A DNA stretch of 32,520 nucleotides from Synergistaceae bacterium. Lineage in GTDB: Bacteria > Synergistota > Synergistia > Synergistales > Synergistaceae. The translations under genes and the position numbers were made by a program. Every line of letters starts with the position of its first letter. The stretch's first letter is position 1. Positions 21,668 through 25,980 of this stretch are shown in pieces. The notes beneath the pieces are model-generated. The model had not been told where the DNA came from. It did not search any database and was given only the letters and a program-made list of their open reading frames with translations. Where the stretch lies: NCBI GenBank assembly GCA_031260185.1, contig JAIRKI010000063.1, forward strand, positions 1 through 32,520. The letters run 5' to 3'.

Positions 21668-22516
21668 TCAAAACTCCACGCCCGTCACGCTGACGTTGAC
21701 GTTATAAACGTTGAGGCCGCTGAAATACCCGACGCTTTTTGCGGCGCTCCGCCTGACGGTCTCCGCTATCTGCGGTATGTTTTTCGGGCCGGGCTTGATT
21801 TTCATCTCTATATCTATGGAGAGCGAGTCCTCATCTGTGGATGAAACCCTGCTCACCGGGGCCGAACCGACCTGGGGCACTTTCGACGCTATGTGGGAAG
21901 CCAATTGTTCTATCGCCTCGGGCTCGATATGAACCTCCCCGTAGAAGCTGAAAGGCGGGCGGACTATGGTCTTTTCGCCGTCGTAGGGCGATTTGGAACG
22001 CCAGAGGACTTTCAGCCGCCCAACGAGTTTTCCCGCGAAATTCTTGCGCACCAGCACGTGCGATACCGGTATCACGTGCTGTCCCTTGAGTACTCTCTCT
22101 TTTCGGGCTCTCGCTATTTCCTCCGGCGTCGCCACGTCCTCTATGCGCACGATCCTGTCGGGCGGAGGGAAACCGAGTTTATGAATTATCCTGCGGGCCA
22201 TGTCGTCCGACGTCGCGATGACCATCACGGAGCATGGCGCGGCCTTCTCGAAAAACCGCCTGACCGACGCGAGATGTTCCTCGTACTCGAACATGGCGCG
22301 TCTTATGGCGCGAATCCGGTTGCGTTCCGCCTTCGCGCTCCTTCCGCAAACTATCTCCGTGCGCCGTATCACCAAACCGTCGTCTATGATATATTCCGCG
22401 TCCAGGCAGTCGGCCACCATCTGCGCCCTCTGGCTCTTGCCGGTGCCGGCCGCGCCGGTGAAAGCGCGGGTTCTGACCGACCCGAACGTATTTTGCGCCG
22501 CGATAACGTCACTCAT
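21668..22516 (-). CDS. P-loop ATPase fused to an Asp23/Gls24-like domain
   Basis: ATG 22516 overlaps the murA stop (ATGAGTGA); the track begins one GTG earlier. 282 residues. The N-terminal half has a Walker A FTGAAGTGKSQRAQM (about 18-32) and reads like a small NTPase or kinase (AEYIIDDGLVI, MVIATSDDMARRIIHKLGF). The C-terminal half (about 178-282) is an Asp23/Gls24 alkaline-shock-type domain: FYGEVHIEPEAIEQLASHIA ... SLSIDIEMKIKPGPKNIPQI ... YNVNVSVTGVEF. Asp23-type proteins sit near the membrane or cell wall in Gram-positives. Fusion to a P-loop domain is unusual; I associate it with Synergistota but cannot verify this. Function unknown; an envelope-linked regulatory role is inference from the murA neighbourhood. 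Confidence 0.7.
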   Translation of the reverse strand: MSDVIAAQNTFGSVRTRAFTGAAGTGKSQRAQMVADCLDAEYIIDDGLVIRRTEIVCGRSAKAERNRIRAIRRAMFEYEEHLASVRRFFEKAAPCSVMVIATSDDMARRIIHKLGFPPPDRIVRIEDVATPEEIARARKERVLKGQHVIPVSHVLVRKNFAGKLVGRLKVLWRSKSPYDGEKTIVRPPFSFYGEVHIEPEAIEQLASHIASKVPQVGSAPVSRVSSTDEDSLSIDIEMKIKPGPKNIPQIAETVRRSAAKSVGYFSGLNVYNVNVSVTGVEF

Positions 22517-23786
22517 CACCGTCTTCGGCGGGCAGCAGTTCTATCCGCGCCCCCAGCGACGTCATTTTTTCCGTCAGATTCTCGTAACCTCTCCATACAT
22601 GTTTCAACTCCCGCACGACAGTCCGCCCCTCGGCCGCGAGACCCATGAGGATCAGCGCCGCTCCCGCCCTCAGGTCGGAAGCCCTCACTTCGCCTCCGTT
22701 CAACTTCGGCACGCCGATGACGATCAGCGTGTTTCCCAGAGTGTCTATCTTGCCTCCCATGCGCCTCAACTCGGGCACGTGCGCGTAACGCGAGTCGAAC
22801 ACGCTCTCGTGAATGACGCTCGTGCCTTCCGCCACGCACAGCGCCGCCGTTATCTGAGGCTGCACGTCCGTCGGAAAACCGGGATACGGCGACGTGGTCA
22901 GCGTAACGCCGTTCCAGTTTTTTCCGGCGGCATCCAGCGCGACGGAATTCGGGGTCGTCTCGAAATCCACGCCGGCCTCGCCGAGTTTCGACAAAAGAGC
23001 CGCCAGATATTCCGGGTTTATGCCGTTTACCGTTATGCCGCCCCTCGTTATGAGACCGGCCAGAAGATATGTGCTCGCCTCTATCCTGTCGGGTATTATC
23101 CTGACCGTGGCCGACTCCATGTCACGCGTGCCCCTGACGGTTATCGTGCCCGTGCCGTCGCCCTCGACGTATGCCCCCATCGCCCTCAACGCCTGGGCGA
23201 GGTTGGAAATTTCGGGCTCGCGGGCGGCGTTTTCGATGACGGATTGGCCCGGCGTCAGCGCCGCGGTCATGAGCAAATTCTCGGTCGCGCCGACGGACGG
23301 AAAATCGAACGTCACACGGGTCGCCGAAAGCCCCGAAGCGGTCGCGTGAACCGACCCCTGTTCCAGGTCTATCTCGGCGCCCATGCGGGCGAGTCCCTTC
23401 AGGTGAAAATCTATGGGCCTGCTGCCTATGGCGCAGCCTCCGGGTAGCGGCAACACGGCCGCGCCGCACCGCGCGACCAAAGGACCCAAGACGAGCGACG
23501 AGGCCCGCATTTTGCGAACCAGATCCGCCGGAGTCTCCCATTTCAGTTCTTCCGGAACGTCTATCGTCATCCTGCCGTTTTCGAAATTTATTTCGGCGCC
23601 GAGATGCCTCAGCAAATCGGACATCGTATGAATATCGCGCAGATTCGGAACCCGCTCGAGGGTCAGACGTCTGCCGCGCAACAATAAAGCCGAAGCCATC
23701 ACCGGAAGCGCCGCGTTTTTGGCCCCCTGAACCGTTATCGCTCCCGAGAGCGGCGATCCTCCGCGAATTGCCATCGATTCACTCAA
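22509..23786 (-). CDS. murA: UDP-N-acetylglucosamine 1-carboxyvinyltransferase
   Basis: 425 residues from a TTG start at 23786. TTG is supported by AGGAG eight bases upstream, whereas the in-frame ATG four codons later is too far from it. Motifs: GAITVQGAKNAALPVMAS (substrate-binding Lys/Asn), LPGGCAIGSRPIDFHLKGL with the PEP-reactive cysteine (fosfomycin target), and TNPGFPTDVQP-like YPGFPTDVQPQITAAL. It catalyses the first committed step of peptidoglycan synthesis, enolpyruvyl transfer to UDP-GlcNAc in the cytoplasm. It is co-transcribed with the P-loop/Asp23 gene (overlap) and lies 140 bases after wecB, with a hairpin cluster between. Confidence 0.95.
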   Translation of the reverse strand: MSESMAIRGGSPLSGAITVQGAKNAALPVMASALLLRGRRLTLERVPNLRDIHTMSDLLRHLGAEINFENGRMTIDVPEELKWETPADLVRKMRASSLVLGPLVARCGAAVLPLPGGCAIGSRPIDFHLKGLARMGAEIDLEQGSVHATASGLSATRVTFDFPSVGATENLLMTAALTPGQSVIENAAREPEISNLAQALRAMGAYVEGDGTGTITVRGTRDMESATVRIIPDRIEASTYLLAGLITRGGITVNGINPEYLAALLSKLGEAGVDFETTPNSVALDAAGKNWNGVTLTTSPYPGFPTDVQPQITAALCVAEGTSVIHESVFDSRYAHVPELRRMGGKIDTLGNTLIVIGVPKLNGGEVRASDLRAGAALILMGLAAEGRTVVRELKHVWRGYENLTEKMTSLGARIELLPAEDGDE

Positions 23787-23837
23787 TCAATTCACTCCTG
23801 TCGGTATGTCGCCGTCACCAAATATATTACAAAACCC

Positions 23838-23982
23838 CGGGCGCTGCCCGAACCCGGCAGGGAGCAAGCTCCCCGCACTCTCTAAAATTTTTTTTATTTT
23901 CACCCGTAGGGTGAAAATAAAAAAAATTAATAAGGGGTCAAGGGGACTAGGTCCCCTTGTGGGGTACGGGGCGGAGCCCCGT
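23838..23982. repeat. Cluster of five adjacent perfect hairpins between wecB and murA
   Basis: Five perfect inverted repeats follow one another: CGGGC-gct-GCCCG (23838-23850); GGGAGC-aa-GCTCCC (23860-23873); a 20-bp AT-rich stem ending in CACCC-gta-GGGTG (23886-23928); CAAGGGGAC-tag-GTCCCCTTG (23939-23959); and ACGGGGC-gga-GCCCCGT (23966-23982). Such a compact series looks like an interspersed multi-hairpin repeat element. Its right part lies inside the wecB reading frame. Confidence 0.8.
23886..23928. terminator. Possible bidirectional rho-independent terminator (20-bp stem, 3-nt loop)
   Basis: The arms AATTTTTTTTATTTTCACCC and their exact complement flank GTA. Read on the minus strand, the stem closes with GGGTGAAAATAAAAAAAATT, so an RNA U-run is present on the far arm in either direction only as part of the stem. 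It could terminate or attenuate transcription between wecB and murA. Because it belongs to a repeat cluster, terminator function is uncertain. Confidence 0.4.
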
Positions 23983-25108
23983 GATTTTGCCTTTCGAGTA
24001 TGTCGGCGATCCGCGCTGAAGCCGCGCCGTCGCCGAAAGGATTTTTATTTTTTTTCTCCTCCGCGCGGCGGTACTCGCCCTCGTCTGAGAGCAATCTGTC
24101 GGCGATACTCACGATATTCTCCGTACTTGTTCCGGCGACGACAGCCGTTCCGGACTCAACGGCCTCGGGGCGTTCCGTGACATCGCGCAGCACAATCACA
24201 GGCTTCCCCAGCGCCGACGCTTCCTCCTGCACGCCGCCGCTGTCGCTCAAAATTATTTTACAATGTTTCAGCGCACGGACAAAATCGGGGTAATCGAGTG
24301 GGTCGCGCAAAATTACCCTGTCGTTATCACCAAGAATTTTTTTCATGGTGTCTCTCACCGCGGGATTTCTGTGCATCGGCACGAGCGCCCGCATACATCC
24401 GTGACGGCGCAGGATTTCAGACAGGGCGAGACAAATCCTTTCCATCGCCTCGCCCCATGACTCGCGCCTGTGCGCCGTCATCAGGATGAAAGGAGAGCCT
24501 TCGAGTCCGGCGAGGGCCGGTGACGCCGTGTCCCCGACGATATCCAGCGCCGAATGAAGCGCGTCGATGACCGTGTTTCCCGTCACGTACAGGCTTTTTT
24601 CGCCAGGACGCTCGCGCCTGAGATTGGATGCGGCATGTTCCGTCGGGGCGAAGAGCCAGCGCGCGATTCTGTCGGTGAGCGTCCTGTTCATCTCCTCCGG
24701 GAACGGCAGGCTCATGTCGAAACTTCTGAGCCCGGCCTCGACGTGGCCTATGGGTATTTTGCGATGAAAAGCGGCGAGCGACGCCGCGAAAGTCGTGGTC
24801 GTATCCCCGTGCACCAATACCGCGTCCGGCCGTCCCGAATCGAACAGCTCTCCCACTCCCGTTATGACCGACGCGGTTATGTAGTCGAGCGACTGAACCC
24901 GCTTCATTATCGCGAGATCCGCGTCGGGCGAGAGGCCGAAGAAAGAGAGCGCCTGACGCAGCATATCGGTATGCTGTCCCGTCGAGATTACCCGCACCGA
25001 GAATTTGCCGCGCTTCCTCAGTTCCCTTACGACGGGCGCCATTTTTATCGCTTCCGGCCGCGTGCCCATCACGACGTCGATTTTTTTCGCGTTTTTCGTG
25101 AACCGCAT
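23927..25108 (-). CDS. wecB: UDP-N-acetylglucosamine 2-epimerase (non-hydrolysing)
   Basis: The track ORF extends to 25498, but ATG 25108 (MRFTKNAKKIDVVMGTRPEA) lies two bases after the previous stop and gives 393 residues, the family size. Motifs: VMGTRPEAIKMAPVV, STGQHTDML, VHGDTTTTFAASLAAF, GHVEAGLRSFD, PEEMNRTLTDRIA, LMTAHRRESWGE, LSDSGGVQEEASALGKPVIV and LRDVTERPEAVESGT. It interconverts UDP-GlcNAc and UDP-ManNAc. With the WecA-like gene before it, this suggests a ManNAc-containing envelope polymer. The natural ending (NPFGDGAASARIADILERQ) is followed by about 19 residues translated from the hairpin repeats. Confidence 0.93.
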   Translation of the reverse strand: MRFTKNAKKIDVVMGTRPEAIKMAPVVRELRKRGKFSVRVISTGQHTDMLRQALSFFGLSPDADLAIMKRVQSLDYITASVITGVGELFDSGRPDAVLVHGDTTTTFAASLAAFHRKIPIGHVEAGLRSFDMSLPFPEEMNRTLTDRIARWLFAPTEHAASNLRRERPGEKSLYVTGNTVIDALHSALDIVGDTASPALAGLEGSPFILMTAHRRESWGEAMERICLALSEILRRHGCMRALVPMHRNPAVRDTMKKILGDNDRVILRDPLDYPDFVRALKHCKIILSDSGGVQEEASALGKPVIVLRDVTERPEAVESGTAVVAGTSTENIVSIADRLLSDEGEYRRAEEKKNKNPFGDGAASARIADILERQNHGAPPRTPQGDLVPLTPY

Positions 25109-25110
25109 CC

Positions 25111-25980
25111 TCAATACCGCGTCATGAAGTAATATCCCATACCCACCATGGCCATGTGCGTCACGACTATCAGGGACAAAACCTCCCATGTCGCGAGTTT
25201 CAAATCGAGCAGAATATGGTGCAAATGCCCCCGGTCGGGGCAAAACGGGGATCGCCCGCGGGCAATCCTTCGCAGCACGGCAAACAGCGTGTCGGTGACC
25301 GGCATTCCCCCGATCAGAAACAGCGTCAAAAGCATCGGGAACGGGCGCATATGGAAAAAGCCGGGGAAAATATCCCAGGCGAGATGCGACGAACATACGT
25401 AACCGAGGAGCGTGGCGCCGCCGTCGCCCAGAAAGGTGCGCGCGCGGGGAAAATTCCACAGCAGCACTCCCGCGATGAGCCCGCAGAACGGGAGCCATGT
25501 GTAGGGATTTCCGCTTCGGAACGCGAGACAGGACGTAGCGAAAGCGAGCGAAAGGGCGAGCCCGTCCATCCCGTCGACAAAATTATAGGCGTTGGTGCAT
25601 CCGGCGATCCAAACGAGAAACAGCGCCCTCTGATAAATCGAAACCGGCATGGGTATGACAACCCACGCCGCCGAGAGCAAATGCACGAAAAGTCTTTTGA
25701 GCGGGGACATGGGATGCATGTCGTCCATATAACCGACCAGAAACACCAATGTGGCGCCGGTCGAGACGTAAGGAACCTCCACGCCGGGATTCGGATTCAC
25801 GAGCGCCCACAGGAGATATCCCGTCCAAAGGACTATGCCCGCTCCCCTCGGCGTCACCGAGGGATGCCTGTGTCTGTCGCCGGGAACGTCCATGAGGCGG
25901 AACGTCCTGGACAATCTCATGGATACCGGCGTCGCGATGACGCCCCACAAAAAATTCAATATCGCGGAAAAAATCGCCAT
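25111..25980 (-). CDS. Undecaprenyl-phosphate GlcNAc-1-phosphate transferase-like (WecA/TagO family)
   Basis: 289 residues, polytopic membrane protein of the GT4/MraY family. Motifs: LVFLVGYMDDMHPMSPLKRL (catalytic DD), NAYNFVDGMDGLA (NxxNxxDGxDGLA), RTFLGDGGATLLGY and CPDRGHLHHILL. The last, HLHH, is typical of the WecA/TagO branch rather than MraY. It transfers HexNAc-1-phosphate from a UDP-sugar to undecaprenyl phosphate, starting an envelope polysaccharide. Its neighbours wecB and uppS supply UDP-ManNAc and the lipid carrier. At 289 residues it is slightly short compared with WecA (about 360), with fewer C-terminal helices. Confidence 0.85.
   Translation of the reverse strand: MAIFSAILNFLWGVIATPVSMRLSRTFRLMDVPGDRHRHPSVTPRGAGIVLWTGYLLWALVNPNPGVEVPYVSTGATLVFLVGYMDDMHPMSPLKRLFVHLLSAAWVVIPMPVSIYQRALFLVWIAGCTNAYNFVDGMDGLALSLAFATSCLAFRSGNPYTWLPFCGLIAGVLLWNFPRARTFLGDGGATLLGYVCSSHLAWDIFPGFFHMRPFPMLLTLFLIGGMPVTDTLFAVLRRIARGRSPFCPDRGHLHHILLDLKLATWEVLSLIVVTHMAMVGMGYYFMTRY

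Follow-up and report, generated by a model that had tools for sequence, protein, structure and literature searches.

A five-hairpin cluster at the 3′ end of wecB in a Synergistaceae genome is very probably one copy of a dispersed, near-palindromic element

The locus studied here raises the question of how the end of a gene, wecB, came to lie within a cluster of hairpins. Five hairpins stand back to back at exactly positions 23838-23982 of the window, by which we mean the whole stretch of 32,520 nucleotides that was analysed (Table 1). The original prediction had described five perfect palindromes; the five back-to-back hairpins are there, and four of them are perfect, H2 being the exception with A23859 opposite C23874. 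Compared with dinucleotide shuffles, the strand of this element copy reached a z-score of -6.5 when folded as RNA and -7.9 when folded as DNA, none of 200 shuffles was as stable, and either strand of this copy folded much better than shuffles. As single-stranded DNA, the minus strand forms a branched fold in which CAAAA pairs with TTTTG as the outer stem, four hairpins stand at the sides and the 20-bp AT-rich hairpin lies in the centre; the outer arms are down to five bases per side.

Table 1 Features of the wecB-murA region (positions of the window)
Feature	Position	Strand	Evidence and remarks
wecB (UDP-GlcNAc 2-epimerase)	23927..25111	-	last 20 or so codons and stop are element DNA; true start near 25090
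murA, next gene downstream of wecB	22509..23786	-	gene order kept in sister species
Whole element copy including outer arms	23830..23989	.	between wecB and murA, overlapping the wecB 3′ end; empty site in relatives
Left outer arm CAAAA, short remnant of terminal inverted repeat (family form AAACCGCAGGATCAAAACC)	23830..23834	.	pairs with 23985-23989 in DNA fold; longer in other copies
H1, CGGGC-GCT-GCCCG	23838..23850	.	fold and covariation
H2, GCAGGGAGC-AA-GCTCCCCGC, one A.C mismatch	23857..23876	.	fold and covariation
H3, central AT-rich hairpin, 20 bp, perfect, 3-nt loop	23886..23928	.	covariation; missing in short copies elsewhere
H4, CAAGGGGAC-TAG-GTCCCCTTG; codes part of WecB tail	23939..23959	.	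wecB translation and covariation
H5, ACGGGGC-GGA-GCCCCGT; codes start of WecB tail	23966..23982	.	wecB translation and covariation
Right outer arm TTTTG	23985..23989	.	DNA fold

The wecB frame on the minus strand passes through H5 and H4 and ends with a TAA stop (23927-23929) at the edge of H3. Translation bore out that these last two palindromes lie in the wecB frame and code for its final residues, as had been predicted, and the tail encoded by the element is exactly QNHGAPPRTPQGDLVPLTPY. In the 394-residue translation from 25111, the matches to Pfam Epimerase_2 and TIGR00236 reach no further than residues 373-374; therefore, the tail lies outside the enzyme fold and, again as predicted, beyond the normal end of the enzyme. 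In the two sister species G004 and G002, wecB is followed by closely similar intergenic sequence and then murA, and the element is absent. WecB without the element ends in ...ADILEKNFARSVVY, that of the window in ...ADILERQNHGAPPRTPQGDLVPLTPY; the gene of G004 ends NPFGDG..RIADILEKNFARSVVY*, and that of G002 is nearly the same, with an ARCVVY variant. In the window, the element stands in place of the sequence between CTCGAAA and TATATT. These comparisons show that the element inserted at the 3′ end of wecB, replaced the last nine codons and the stop, and now encodes a 20-residue tail and a stop of its own. An insertion that replaced the stop was also what the original prediction had proposed, and both tests that it had named favour this reading: the same ordered set of hairpins recurs across the genome, so it is not unique, and the long WecB tail is not conserved in the sister species. 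Most likely, this tail is a tolerated by-product and not a new function.

In the own genome, a MAG of 73% completeness in 140 contigs, blastn gave 59 matches in about 45 places (at least 40); since the element almost equals its reverse complement, several places match on both strands. The ten other genomes of the genus that were searched all contained matches, and none was detected, at blastn sensitivity, in 30 genomes that belong to the family and order but to other genera. From 68 copies we deduced the family form, which consists of the outer repeat AAACCGCAGGATCAAAACC, H1, ACCC, H2, ACCC, an optional AT-rich H3, GGGGT, H4, CGGGGT, H5 and again the outer repeat. The linkers are complementary and able to pair with one another, and many copies have terminal inverted repeats AAACCGCAGGATCAAAACC..GGTTTTGATCCTGCGGTTT, which are short in the window copy. 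Since H3 is missing in short copies elsewhere (e.g., L066, L068 and L073), it constitutes an optional module. There are also half copies, with H1-H2 alone or H4-H5 alone (L069, L076, L075), and the full copies at many loci are inverted dimers, i.e., the reverse complement of a half, a spacer and the half itself. The cluster thus very probably represents a single copy of an interspersed element that is non-autonomous and nearly palindromic and can be compared with a REP dimer or a MITE. Each half would be built from two units of GGGGT plus hairpin, two inverted halves would fold into a stem from which four hairpins branch sideways, the central H3 being optional, and the spread of the element presumably depends on such a folded single strand.

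Some copies have additional features. A second small hairpin, CCCGTAGGAGCATCGGGCCTATGGG, is nested in the tip of H1, H2 or H5 at L025, L104, L106, L117, L070 and L027, as if hairpins insert into hairpins. In L061, at about 460-560, both halves of one copy are separated by a palindromic repeat of another kind, which is AT-rich (TATAGCGGTTTCATATAAT..ATACTAAACCGCTATA). Directly to the right of the element in L020 (1952-2103) lie several tandem units of roughly 80-100 bp, each with an H5-like hairpin (CGGGGTACGGGGTGAAGCCCCGT).

Insertion was also visible at other loci when the flanks of copies were searched in four relatives and aligned. Ten loci beyond wecB were empty in at least one relative (L009, L010, L012, L014, L016, L024, L026, L063, L071 and L073), and all of these apart from L010 and L026 were empty in all relatives compared. 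The L026 site lacks the element in two relatives, and in G002 (L273) it holds a short copy without H3 and with a wholly different H4 sequence; this difference suggests that modules were exchanged or that two insertions occurred independently at the same spot. The site L010:1872 is unoccupied in one relative, and in two others the copy there has the opposite orientation. The alignments show many orthologous sites at which one species has a copy and another does not. In some insertions, the element took the place of a few to about 40 bases of the target, and no target-site duplication of constant length was consistent among the compared empty sites. The insertion at L014:1949-2157 is flanked by GAATAATTC and GAATTATTC, and the empty site has one GAATTATTC; this could be a duplication in inverted orientation or a target duplication of 9 bp with a single change, the sole possible 9-bp repeat seen. 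Insertion into pre-existing hairpins as a rule was rejected, as the outer arms belong to the insert at L012 and L026.

Several copies lie inside genes and cause neither a frame shift nor a stop. They were found in the genes for MurE (L015), a CobA-HemD fusion (L010), the carboxynorspermidine decarboxylase NspC (L064), AddA (L066) and an FtrD-like membrane protein (L073), and, less certainly, in an AddB-like gene (L009). The MurE insert is absent from all ten relatives, and solved MurE structures align on either side of it. In CobA, 64 query residues separate template residues 100 and 102, NspC gave one TIGR01047 match containing about 49 surplus residues, AddA has UvrD_C before the insert and PDDEXK_1 after it, and the FtrD-like gene is empty in G007. 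Most in-gene copies share one frame, KTAGSARTRxGxxSPDPL..GSRGLVPLRGTGRSPV, and a search with the corresponding peptide uncovered numerous further open copies within the genus. Of the copies of the own genome, 10 of 14 have one frame open, as have 11 of 12 copies of G009 (expected 0.33 and 0.23, respectively), which is not conclusive for an open frame as a selected feature because the copies are related. Neither the 53-aa element peptide nor the host proteins matched a Rickettsia palindromic element (RPE) model in NCBIfam, and the peptide had no match to a Pfam family. Insertions into genes may survive thanks to the stop-free frame of the element, with selection presumably removing copies that break the frame or the fold.

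Judging from the sequence, the C-terminus of TruB and the N-termini of FliP and RluD are probably also written by copies. At L012:2033-2188, the lepA stop lies on one side of the element and the first hemW codons on the other, and a TTG within the element may now serve as the hemW start.

The pairing within the hairpins is maintained between copies. Among 41 aligned full copies and a structure of 54 pairs, 95.6% of cells were paired vs 89.2% after shuffling, and 147 cells had changed on both sides vs 49, a number that none of 500 shuffles reached. Sliding the partner by one column lowered pairing to about 60% (slid controls at most 61%). Each of the five hairpins showed covariation, as did, weakly, one linker stem. 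Pairing is therefore maintained, whatever the cause; relatedness of the copies and correction by template switching could contribute. That compensatory changes keep every hairpin suggests recognition of the fold by a putative trans-acting enzyme, but it does not prove it, because template switching during replication can also keep perfect palindromes.

The core of the right half of the element also occurs beyond the genus. The core pattern, GGGGTCAAGGGGN2-8CCCCTTGCGGGGTNNGGGGCNGNGCCCC, was present, among the matches listed, in Myxococcota, Acetobacteraceae, Desulfovibrio, Adiutrix, several Bacillota, Phytomonospora (Actinomycetota), Ardenticatenia (Chloroflexota), Spyradenecus and Synergistaceae, i.e., in about eight phyla as counted from the record titles of these matches. 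A shorter core occurred 1 to 102 times per genome in 15 distant carriers and its reversed control never. A few of the distant carriers, such as Acetobacteraceae L151, have the full order H1-H2-central stem-H4-H5 with another central sequence. Of 188 Synergistota genomes, 12 carry the core, a very patchy distribution. That it is widespread in the class of the Oscillospiraceae MAG G044 was rejected, as only one of 391 genomes sampled from it carried the core, namely G044 itself with 107 copies. Single matches may be binning errors because most carriers are MAGs; the Phytomonospora record belongs to a named strain and has 11 copies, most of them on large contigs. The core pattern had no match in virus contigs (IMG/VR), nor was there a blastn match in plasmid and phage records, and carriage by phages, viruses or plasmids is not supported. 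We infer common descent of the core through horizontal movement.

The core copies of G044 (L121, L155, L160, L167 and others) have near-identical flanks, TGGAGGAACAA..CCTGGCCACGAGGGTCC, and many of them lie less than 300 bases from a contig end.

The position of the cluster would also suit a transcription terminator or attenuator that acts in both directions between wecB and murA and is kept for regulation, and the original prediction had suggested that the AT-rich 20-bp stem could attenuate murA transcription. Strong hairpins close to a gene end, terminator-like matches with four T each on both strands (after H5 on the plus strand, after H1 on the minus strand) and the intergenic location of many other copies fit such a role. 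However, these sites of the window copy are weak (TTTT) and lie at the outer hairpins only, and H3 has no U-tract. On either strand, the T-rich arm of H3 is 5′ and the A-rich arm 3′; an intrinsic terminator would have the opposite order, so H3 is none. The in-frame copies in murE, cobA-hemD, nspC, addA and the FtrD-like gene imply that transcription and translation must run through the element, and the wecB-murA site exists without it in the sister species. Attenuation by H3 was therefore rejected on arm orientation and in-gene copies, and we regard a regulatory terminator as very unlikely; the best reading is a selfish, foldable element that is tolerated where it is harmless or in frame. A known RNA family was rejected too, as Rfam yielded only matches below threshold: the best bacterial one was RF02937 (Clostridiales-2) with 24.8 bits vs a gathering threshold of 58.6, and other copies or carriers gave none above threshold.

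How copies arise and move can be read in different ways. If palindromes grew in place, with template switching copying one arm onto the other, the stems and long inverted repeats would be mutational products. Outer arms that are peculiar to one copy and pair over much more than the family consensus (L063, L014, L026), hairpins nested in hairpins (L025, L106, L117) and the differing H3 and H4 in the copies that two species have at the L026 site are consistent with this, yet it explains neither how one ordered set spread over some 45 places nor a core common to distant phyla. We consider it unlikely as the explanation, but template switching may act on top of transposition. The palindromic nature, high copy number, inverted dimers and partly intragenic location are all known of REPs (PMC3733652), and some relatives have Y1 transposases, as would be expected of a true REP/BIME family moved by a RAYT, a Y1 HUH transposase. 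In the 41-copy alignment, however, GGGGT and not a GTAG/CGTC tag stands beside the stems. Y1_Tnp is absent from the own genome, G009 (96% complete, >35 matches), G006 and G010, as well as from 9 of 15 other, distant carriers including the Phytomonospora isolate and G044 with its more than 100 copies, and the one Y1 gene of the genus that was inspected sits in an IS200-like element. A RAYT is no general explanation because Y1_Tnp is missing from so many carriers; as the mobiliser it is not supported, and we regard it as quite improbable. Assembly or binning artefacts could be suspected behind the in-gene and wecB copies in a fragmented MAG with some copies at contig ends. This is extremely improbable: gene order across the wecB copy is the same in relatives without it, in-gene copies keep the frame without stops, unlike chance joins, and the family occurs in 11 of 11 genomes of the genus, ten of which come from other bins.

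Beyond the original prediction, the analysis thus revealed in-frame copies, paired linkers and outer repeats, and a cross-phylum core. It is possible, and we propose it tentatively, that the element represents an unnamed class of mobile palindromes made of inverted pairs of GGGGT plus hairpin. These would have moved horizontally between chromosomes of about eight phyla, reaching more than 100 copies in few genomes through an enzyme other than Y1/RAYT, and in this Synergistaceae genus would also act as a coding insert tolerated by essential enzymes. Palindromic DNA carried in frame by conserved enzymes is known best from Rickettsia. The inserts in MurE, CobA-HemD and NspC add a second lineage, unrelated to the first, in which it becomes testable how proteins tolerate such DNA and whether palindromic DNA seeds new protein parts. 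The nearly identical core in scattered phyla, with no virus, phage or plasmid match and no tie to the usual REP transposase, suggests that its mobiliser is still to be found. On the practical side, automatic annotation will count the inserts as protein, and the repeats break assemblies.

We found no description of this element family in the papers searched, and searches with sequence fragments gave unrelated matches only. RPEs, in-frame palindromic inserts in Rickettsia genes (Ogata 2000; summarised in PMC10969869), are likewise about 150 bp long, palindromic and dispersed, have a conserved open frame and lie in frame in unrelated genes. The element differs in its phylum, its two inverted two-hairpin halves with an optional central hairpin, and its mostly intergenic or gene-end full copies; homology to RPEs was compared at the peptide level, where no NCBIfam or Pfam model matched. 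High copy number, short GC-rich stem-loops, inverted dimers, some intragenic copies and a patchy distribution over phyla are shared with REP/BIME/REPIN sequences. These are usually GTAG- or CGTC-tagged, although untagged families and intragenic REPs were also noted (PMC3733652), whereas here GGGGT precedes the hairpins, the tag is lacking and many carriers are without the Y1 transposase. MITEs (ERIC, RUP, BOX and others; PMC10969869) resemble the element in being non-autonomous, having inverted repeats and being able to fuse to reading frames, but here no constant target-site duplication was seen and the ends are variable. Organelle genomes harbour comparable double-hairpin or repetitive hairpin elements, in Volvox (PMC2670323) and sponges (PMC2800124), which are clustered, short and selfish-looking and spread without a known enzyme; the element described here differs from them in its location on a bacterial chromosome, its sequences and its in-frame insertion into conserved enzymes. 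Finally, PARCELs (palindromic amphipathic repeat coding elements; PMC2996958) also consist of coding DNA that is palindromic and are scattered in a punctate manner over distant taxa, but they constitute tandem 25-residue repeats, whereas the present element is a single dispersed insert.
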